Positions 19,138 through 20,275 of a stretch of 38,266 nucleotides of DNA are shown piece after piece; positions within the stretch are counted from its first letter, which is position 1, and the number at the start of each line of letters is the position of its first letter. The notes below the pieces were generated by a model. The model did no database searches. It was not told the origin of the DNA and saw only the letters and a list, made by a program, of their open reading frames with translations. Origin of the DNA: a virus. A program made the translations under genes and the position numbers. The stretch spans positions 1 through 38,266 of the IMG/VR virus record IMGVR_UViG_3300042691_016123, one strand, 5' to 3'.

Positions 19138-19626
19138 ATGACTAATCTTGCGCGAAAGTGGCGGGGCCATAAATACAATCTGGGTCATGAATGCTGGCCT
19201 AGGATTTTCACTCGAATGAGTGAGGGTGAGGCTCTAACGACAGCTATAAAGCCAGAAGCGATTACCTATAGTGTCGCGCTTCGAACGATCCGGACGATCC
19301 CGGAGCTGCGCGAGATGTACGAACAAGCCCTTGAGGATCGGGCAGATAAGCTAGCAGAGGAAATACTAAGCCTAGCCGATGAAGATATGCCCGAGGGATT
19401 AAGAGGCGCAGAAGCAGCCGCTTGGGTCAATAAAAAAAGATTGCAGGTTGACGCACGCAAATGGATTGCTGCCAAGCTCAAACCTAAACGCTATGGTGAC
19501 AGGCTGGAAATGGAAGTAACGGACAATCGCATCAGCATTACCGATGCGCTTAACGAAGCGAAGGCCAGGGTTTTAACCCCGATGGTCGTTGACGTTGCAT
19601 CCCGTGAGGTTAGCCGAGATGAGTGA
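19138..19626 (+). CDS. terS: Terminase small subunit
   Basis: 162 aa. The N-terminal region (residues 10-60) has a homing HTH-like pattern (MSEGEALTTAIKPEAITYSV, then TIPELREMYEQALEDRADKL). The stretch VNKKRLQVDARKWIAAKLKP followed by KRYGDRLEMEVTD is the hallmark of a common phage small-terminase family. It binds the packaging start site and recruits the large subunit. Unusually, 1.6 kb with three leftward genes separates it from the large subunit. No SD; likely leaderless. Confidence 0.88.
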   Translation: MTNLARKWRGHKYNLGHECWPRIFTRMSEGEALTTAIKPEAITYSVALRTIRTIPELREMYEQALEDRADKLAEEILSLADEDMPEGLRGAEAAAWVNKKRLQVDARKWIAAKLKPKRYGDRLEMEVTDNRISITDALNEAKARVLTPMVVDVASREVSRDE

Positions 19627-19680
19627 CAACGCACTCCAATGCGCCCATTAGGCGCATCAGGGTAGGCTGTTAGGCTGTGC
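19621..19680 (-). repeat. Two-hairpin 3' element, copy E1
   Basis: Hairpin 1 GAGTG-acaacg-CACTC (19621-19636) and hairpin 2 ATGCGCC-catta-GGCGCAT (19639-19657), then GGTAGGCTGTTAGGCTGT. The same order occurs in E2 and E3 with different but still paired bases. It overlaps the terS stop and the end of the leftward gene 19670-19855. Confidence 0.7.
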
Positions 19681-19855
19681 GCGTACTCCGGCCGGCCCGT
19701 GCGGCGGCGTAGCGGCGGCGGTGATTGGCCGCCATTTCTAAGCACCAAAATGACATGTGCCGCTTGCCTCGCTCGGCATCTACCTGCGACTGATCGCAGT
19801 AATAGAGGAATGCCGCCAAATGCCTTGCGGCTTCTTTTAAATGATTGAATTTCAT
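19670..19855 (-). CDS. Small helical protein, last gene of cluster D
   Basis: 61 aa from ATG 19855; AGGAG lies 8 nt upstream, whereas an in-frame GTG at 19861 is too close to it. KFNHLKEAARHLAAFLYYCD, then a basic helix (ERGKRHMSFWCLEMAANHRR) and an Arg-rich tail. Basic and helical, possibly nucleic-acid binding. Not recognised. Confidence 0.65.
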   Translation of the reverse strand: MKFNHLKEAARHLAAFLYYCDQSQVDAERGKRHMSFWCLEMAANHRRRYAAARAGRSTRTA

Positions 19856-19870
19856 AGCCACTACTCCTGA

Positions 19871-19947
19871 TTAGACCCGTTAAGGCATTAGTGCAACAGC
19901 GCACCACATAGCACCCGGACGGATGCTACAGGGTAGGCTGTCAGGCT
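19871..19947 (-). repeat. Two-hairpin intercistronic element, copy E2
   Basis: GTGC-aacagc-GCAC (19891-19904) and TAGCA-CCC/GG-A-TGCTA (19909-19928), with flanks GGGTAGGCTGTCAGGCTGC. On the coding strand it is followed by AATGCC, CGGGTCTAATCAGGAG and the start of the next gene, so a 3' element and a 5' leader element abut here. Confidence 0.75.
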
Positions 19948-20183
19948 GCTTGCCGATTGTGGTGGGCTTGCAATCTTTGCGCTTGGGCTAGATATGACGC
20001 ATTGGCTGGATGATCCATTGACCAGCGATCCGGTTCTGTGCCGAGGGTCTGGACATGGGCGATAGCGTCTTCGTATGATGCCATCGGCAGGAGTTTAGAA
20101 CCGACTTCAACGTAAACCCCATGCTTGCCGAGCTTCTCGGCATAGTCTGACGTTGGGTATGCGTAACCGATTGAGTGTTTCAT
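19941..20183 (-). CDS. Small protein, middle gene of cluster D
   Basis: 80 aa from ATG 20183 (AAGGAAACC upstream). An in-frame ATG at 20213 would add MPSGSFKETT and coincides with the AUGCC of the leader module. KHSIGYAYPTSDYAEKLGKH then GVYVEVGSKLLPMASYEDAI and a Gln/His-rich end. Small alpha/beta protein, not recognised. Confidence 0.7.
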   Translation of the reverse strand: MKHSIGYAYPTSDYAEKLGKHGVYVEVGSKLLPMASYEDAIAHVQTLGTEPDRWSMDHPANASYLAQAQRLQAHHNRQAA

Positions 20184-20200
20184 GGTGGTTTCCTTAAAAG

Positions 20201-20275
20201 ACCCTGAGGGCATTAGTGCAACAACGCACCCCATAGCCCACAGAATGGGCTAGATGGTGGGTTGTTGGGCTGCTA
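20201..20275 (-). repeat. Two-hairpin intercistronic element, copy E3
   Basis: GTGC-aacaac-GCAC (20216-20229) and TAGCCCA-cagaa-TGGGCTA (20234-20252), then GGTGGGTTGTTGGGCTGC. Followed on the coding strand by AATGCCCTCAGGGTCT, TTTTAAGGA and the next start. Confidence 0.75.

Follow-up and report, generated by a model that had tools for sequence, protein, structure and literature searches.

The intergenic elements of a short minus-strand operon in a podovirus-like phage form long hairpins anchored at the stop codon of the preceding gene. A role of this stop-anchored hairpin in the RNA is well supported and is the best-supported mechanistic step of the present analysis. By analogy with phage transcripts of known processing, the module probably separates self-contained gene cassettes as a site of RNase III-type processing and end protection. 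The reading of the element as RNA punctuation between the cistrons of a minus-strand cassette operon, which would combine RNase III-type processing or 3′ end definition with the function of a homology seam, stands at about even probability.

The whole stretch of DNA analysed (the window) is a 38,266-base IMG/VR record, in which portal, TerL, TerS, RusA-like, RecE-like and Erf-like proteins are encoded. In TerL, identity to an uncultured Manatee Spring podovirus is 75%, and the epsilon15 protein is a more distant relative. Relatives of TerL were found in bacterial bins of freshwater Burkholderiales (Rhodoferax and another Burkholderiales), in one of Methylococcaceae and in one of an actinobacterium; given this spread, freshwater Burkholderiales are an uncertain candidate for the host. 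The operon is read from a promoter through gene C, E3, gene B, E2, gene A and E1, head-on to the plus-strand terS gene. Its features are as follows.

20588..20630, minus strand: promoter region of the C-B-A operon; the same box and -10 occur in 19 leaders of the phage group
20616-20630, minus strand: operator-like box TTAGGGTTTGTCCTA, part of the promoter region
20588-20595, minus strand: -10 TAGACAAT, part of the promoter region
20537..20580, minus strand: promoter-proximal leader of gene C, with AUGCC start, CCGC..GCGG hairpin and Shine-Dalgarno sequence (SD) (from -10 spacing and fold)
20273..20536, minus strand: gene C, 87 aa; homologs in 13 viral loci at 51-94% identity
20219..20267, minus strand: E3 long hairpin, with AACAAC/GUUGUU outer and TAGCCCA/TGGGCTA inner stem (fold, covariance model match)
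20216..20229, minus strand: E3 alternative hairpin II, GTGC-GTTGTT-GCAC, exclusive with the long hairpin
20184..20213, minus strand: E3 leader, with AUGCC, hairpin III CCC-UCA-GGG and UCUUUUAAGGA SD (sequence, alignment)
19941..20183, minus strand: gene B, 80 aa; reading frame with SD and ATG right after the E3 leader
19895..19942, minus strand: E2 long hairpin, beginning inside the gene B stop codon (fold, covariance model match)
19891..19904, minus strand: E2 alternative hairpin II, GTGC-GCTGTT-GCAC, exclusive with the long hairpin
19856..19888, minus strand: E2 leader, with AUGCC, hairpin III CCU-UAAC-GGG and AGGAG SD (sequence, alignment)
19670..19855, minus strand: gene A, 61 aa; stop codon at the base of the E1 hairpin
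19626..19670, minus strand: E1 long hairpin at the operon end (fold; kept in the diverged L056 and L058 homologs)
19138..19626, plus strand: terS, terminase small subunit (phrog_1482, E 4e-26), convergent with the operon

PHROG and Pfam searches with gene C gave no match. Elsewhere in the window, about 700 nt of apparently noncoding sequence (14780-15520, plus strand) include stretches conserved at about 90-99% among relatives, for example 15158-15606. Here, GAGCGGAGA/TCTCCGCTC enclose a T-arm-like GGGGTTCGATTCCCC, and TTTTTT comes after a strong hairpin; the region gave no Rfam or tRNA/tmRNA match and is a candidate for a large structured RNA. A phosphoadenosine phosphosulfate reductase-like gene lies at 15520-16578 on the plus strand (phrog_424, E 2e-72).

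The initial annotation had described three related elements at gene ends, with common flanks and three self-complementary stems (ATGCGCC/GGCGCAT, TAGCA/TGCTA and TAGCCCA/TGGGCTA), and these were found at 19619-20267. It had missed that transcription is from the minus strand, so that the elements serve genes C, B and A, and had drawn each element as two hairpins. In the main fold, the minus-strand RNA instead forms a single imperfect hairpin of about 20 bp, because the outer flank AACAGC pairs with GCUGUU, the supposed loop of the "first hairpin"; the GTGC..GCAC stem of that hairpin is a competing alternative. Two independent hairpins were rejected as the main fold on account of this pairing and of energy, the long hairpin being about 3-18 kcal/mol better than the state in which the 5′ arm is blocked, and more than 7 kcal/mol better in most copies. 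Folding energies were -24.3 kcal/mol for E1 (z -4.3), -27.6 kcal/mol for E2 (z -4.1) and -27.0 kcal/mol for E3 (z -4.2), and for each of them 0 of 200 dinucleotide shuffles folded as well. When E2 was placed in a 93-nt stretch the minimum-energy fold differed, and the centroid was the long hairpin. E3 and E2 scored 68.9 and 75.1 bits with the covariance model, in which both copies are themselves included. A pseudoknot between the flank and the loop of hairpin II was rejected, since one linker would have length zero, which the geometry forbids.

The long hairpins average 20 pairs, and fully paired copies reach 20-22 bp. One or more mismatches occur per stem, and two distant copies have no more than 16 pairs. 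The ideal copy is that of contig L003, UAACAGC-C-UACCCUGUAGCAUCC with loop AUCC and GGGUGCUAUGGGGUG-C-GCUGUUG, in which 22 pairs are formed around a single C.C mismatch. In the main group of copies CCNACC and the GCUGUU arm are constant beyond what the structure needs.

Selection on this fold is seen in the alignment of 32 copies of the long hairpin (A2). Over 22 pairs, 91.7% of the cells are paired, against 27-48% in slid controls in which the partner was moved by 1-3 columns; 8 pairs and 31 cells have changed on both sides. The observed covariation score was reached by 0 of 500 shuffles of this alignment, a count that is not a probability because the aligned copies are related, so that the slid controls and the diverged copies weigh more. 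Among the latter, the fold is kept with new outer arms in L043 (AACAAU/AUUGUU) and L051 (GAUC/GAUC), and this complementarity is independent evidence since the retrieval pattern left the outer arms unconstrained. Diverged homologs of E1 keep it as GACAGCCUA/UGGGUUGUC in L056 and CCCGUCC/GGAUGGG in L058, and L016:6578-6632, retrieved by the covariance model only (34 bits), keeps it with GAAAAUCC/GGGUUUUC.

Strand and position relative to the stop codon were counted over 33 copies. In 29 of these, the fold is better on the sense strand than on the complement, with a mean of 4.3 G-U pairs vs 0.6, as would be expected from selection on the transcript. In 22 of the 33 copies the module opens with the stop codon of the upstream gene (offset 0), which makes up its first three bases; in all 33 this codon lies within -11 to +3 nt of the module start. 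The element was absent at six other minus-strand reading frame ends in the window and at 18 in two relatives. Together with the shared leader described below, covariation, sense-strand G-U pairs and stop anchoring lend good support to the RNA role at gene ends that the initial annotation had proposed.

The 3′ arm of the module can adopt a second fold. The loop of hairpin II is the outer 3′ arm of the long hairpin, so the two folds exclude each other, and this holds also in the diverged copies L051 and L016:6578-6632. One compensatory double change was found in hairpin II, in L055 (GTGC/GCAC to GTAC/GTAC). Most diverged copies have a comparable hairpin; individual shuffle fractions were 0.002-0.62 in the copies so analysed, and the E1 homologs keep a shifted version. 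From these comparisons, support for hairpin II as a real structure is moderate.

Downstream of the hairpin, the leaders at the junctions have a fixed order: AUGCC, a CCC-NNNN-GGG hairpin (hairpin III), a UCUAUUU-type sequence, SD and AUG. Hairpin III is paired in 98% of the cells over the junction set. First-gene leaders after a promoter are of the same kind, with CCC/GGG or CCGC/GCGG stems, and in 19 of 19 promoters of the phage group AUGCC or AUUCC begins 6-7 nt after the -10, which should be where transcription begins. AUGCC was rejected as the start of a leader peptide: the ATG is missing in the first copy of L005 and in L041, and the E2 frame stops after two codons. The near-palindrome TTAGGGTTTGTCCTA stands upstream of the -10 at minus-strand operon starts (20616-20630, 19090-19104 and 14412-14426) and at many other loci, sometimes in tandem (L004, L015), and is a probable operator or promoter box of the phage group.

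Since promoter and junction leaders are alike, genes C, B and A present the same 5′ module, and all three end in the same 3′ hairpin. The direct continuation of E2 and E3 into the AUGCC leader, noticed earlier, is seen in the sequence. The accompanying statement that every gene has the same 3′ and 5′ RNA ends stands for the shared leaders and hairpins and needs amendment in two places, as the leader of gene C lies behind the promoter and not, like those of B and A, behind a junction, and as E1 has neither a leader nor a gene 3′ of its hairpin. E1 overlaps the terS stop codon from the opposite strand, the only element to touch this plus-strand gene. A hairpin without leader where no gene follows indicates that the 3′ part of the module goes with the preceding gene and the 5′ part with the following one.

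The minus strand of the junctions showed no promoter-like site, and the would-be -10 region varies there (CTAATG, CTGTATG, CTCATG, CTGCATG); a promoter inside the junction is thus not supported. An intrinsic terminator, a GC-rich hairpin with U-tract, is likewise unsupported, as the U-tract is missing in the sequence and no U-tract terminator was found by a scan of the minus strand of the region. Of the proposed role in termination control, classical U-tract termination thus finds no support. From the missing promoter and terminator, the C-B-A junctions would be co-transcribed.

RNase III prefers stems near two helical turns. A long imperfect double-stranded hairpin of about this length is present here between same-strand genes. 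Three points favour RNase III-type processing: the size of the stem, its location between genes of what would be a single transcript, and the analogy with T7, whose early mRNA is processed at five sites (PMC4858673). The module resembles the T7 sites as an irregular long hairpin between consecutive phage genes on a polycistronic RNA. It differs from them in its anchoring at the stop codon, near-identical reuse, alternative hairpin at the 3′ arm and uniform leader, and cleavage here is a prediction from the analogy. Each cassette would consist of a leader (AUGCC, hairpin III, SD), the reading frame and a hairpin of about 20 bp that usually starts at its stop codon. Host RNase III would cut the long hairpin, or the hairpin would otherwise set the 3′ end of the upstream message; no phage-encoded RNase III was found, so that cutting would need the host enzyme. 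Once the hairpin is opened, its 3′ arm may refold into hairpin II, and the downstream message would gain a 5′ end capped by this hairpin and, behind it, the leader that it shares with promoter-initiated transcripts.

A passive 3′ clamp and insulator is the strongest rival to RNase III-type processing: without cutting, the hairpin would stabilise the 3′ end against 3′ exonucleases and block read-through or reinitiation, each gene using its own leader. The stop codon at the base of the stem and the retention of the hairpin in E1, though no gene follows, agree with it. So do the gene C homologs elsewhere that end in simple hairpins; in other freshwater phages (L029-L036) the homolog is followed by a GGGGC-UUCG-GCCCC-type hairpin and in several cases then by a CCCGCAAGGGTCTTTTAAGGA-type (CCC-GCAA-GGG) leader, an alternative punctuation of the same logic, an indication that any stable hairpin at the 3′ end may be sufficient. 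However, 20-22 bp at full pairing exceeds the need of a clamp, and an alternative hairpin is retained at the 3′ arm; we regard this explanation as rather unlikely.

The beginning of the 5′ arm at or near the stop codon and the two mutually exclusive folds, present also in diverged copies, would suit a ribosome-controlled switch as well, in which a terminating ribosome covers the 5′ arm, hairpin II forms, and translation or transcription of the next gene is coupled to the previous one. However, both folds leave the SD exposed and lack a U-tract, and with the moderate support for hairpin II such a switch is improbable. Still less probable is a binding site for a phage or host RNA-binding protein in operon-wide translational or antitermination control. 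It would account for positions constant beyond structural need, such as CCNACC and the GCUGUU arm of the main group, but in diverged copies the outer arms have changed wholly while the fold is kept.

The element was found in 37 other viral contigs, with three weaker candidates, by pattern scans of IMG/VR and the covariance model, at one to three copies per phage; the initial annotation had named a lack of copies in relatives as a point against its reading, and this outcome speaks for it. The carriers are a group of freshwater bacterial viruses. No Rfam 15 family reached its gathering cut-off, no match was obtained in GenBank phages and plasmids, and an exact 21-mer had 0 matches across 84,980 bacterial and archaeal species, each represented by a single genome. 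The genomes and bins that hold TerL relatives gave no match among the 150 candidates scored per genome. A scan with the flank only (TRACARCCTACCCTNNNGC) returned the known copies and apparent chance matches. Hairpins of the same inner design with GACU/AGUC outer arms (36 bits) were observed at L049:6850-6893 and L042:7-50, in otherwise different contigs, adjoining a GGGAGAGAATTCTCTCCC inverted repeat.

The proposed part of the element in cassette exchange was absent from the earlier account. About 30 gene families are joined through the element in shuffled combinations. Downstream family g01 follows five upstream families, and g03, g05 and g06 follow four each; conversely, 3-4 different downstream families come after each of the upstream families g02, g04 and g07 (four after g02). 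Four contigs with 97-98% identical TerS, which in the terS-terL region are two near-identical pairs, show two cassette arrangements in this interval, both unlike that of the window. Compared pair by pair, the nucleotide sequences agree closely on the shared-gene side, with identity of about 0.6-1.0 across most of the module and about 0.45 beyond. L041 and L047 show no relationship ahead of the module and do not differ from the inner hairpin on; the same holds for L048 and L050.

The exchanged genes include ArdC-like (PF08401) and GP88 (PF17338) genes and an ArdA-like gene (PF07275 just below cut-off; phrog_2059, anti-restriction). ArdC- and ArdA-like cassette genes lie downstream of the element at L050:4797-5576 and L015:3444-3833, and other cassettes may be further counter-defence genes.

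All junctions share about 50-85 nt, which would make cassette swapping at the module possible. The RecE-like exonuclease and Erf-like annealing protein, or host recombination, might exchange cassettes there with expression left undisturbed, and the shared seams could also be a side effect of ordinary mosaic recombination. No PF00589 integrase was found in the window or in 8 related contigs, records that may be fragments; with RecE-like and Erf-like proteins encoded, this favours homology-driven over integron-type site-specific exchange. An attC-type DNA recombination site, recognised as a folded single strand by a tyrosine recombinase, would share the array of variable, exchangeable genes in one orientation, each followed by an inverted repeat at which exchange occurs, but is highly improbable and already largely refuted by the missing integrase, by the RYYYAAC...GTTRRRY boxes, of which the variable 5′ one fails in several copies and the 3′ one reads GTTGCAC, and by RNA-type pairing with G-U pairs on the transcribed strand.

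Punctuation of accessory genes by repeated modules has precedents. T4-type PeSLs, as reported from Arbiol 2010 and Comeau 2014 in PMC4503421 and PMC3950731, combine a promoter with a stem-loop and are linked to shuffling. The present module is likewise a repeated intergenic regulatory module between small accessory genes at points of shuffling. Unlike PeSLs, it holds no promoter, which stands once before the first gene, and its stem-loop lacks a U-tract terminator. The ESAS of cluster K mycobacteriophages is an imperfect 17 bp inverted repeat, with a spacer of mostly 4-13 bp, just upstream of the start-associated sequence (SAS), and is found at genes of many families (PMC3203893). The module shares with it an imperfect inverted repeat directly upstream of a gene-start module in many gene families. 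It differs in its unrelated sequence and host, in being set by the preceding stop codon where ESAS is set by the start codon, and in that its 3′ hairpin occurs also without a following gene (E1); the 13-bp SAS GGGATAGGAGCCC beside the start codon was not found in the aligned leaders. Thus, the module shares the logic of PeSLs and ESAS and, by the features compared, is a member of neither.

The most specific form of the proposal, which we advance only tentatively, is a bistable junction RNA. A stop-anchored hairpin, when cut or passed by a ribosome, would flip its 3′ arm into a 5′-cap hairpin, and the same sequence would serve as a seam for annealase-mediated swapping of plug-in accessory genes, ArdA- and ArdC-like genes included. 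Selection on the structure of the junction RNA, seen in compensatory change, sense-strand G-U pairs and stop anchoring, coincides with the points at which accessory genes are exchanged. This makes testable the idea that uniform expression ends allow genes to be swapped freely. With anti-restriction-like genes among its cargo, the module may be a handle for unknown counter-defence genes in freshwater phages.
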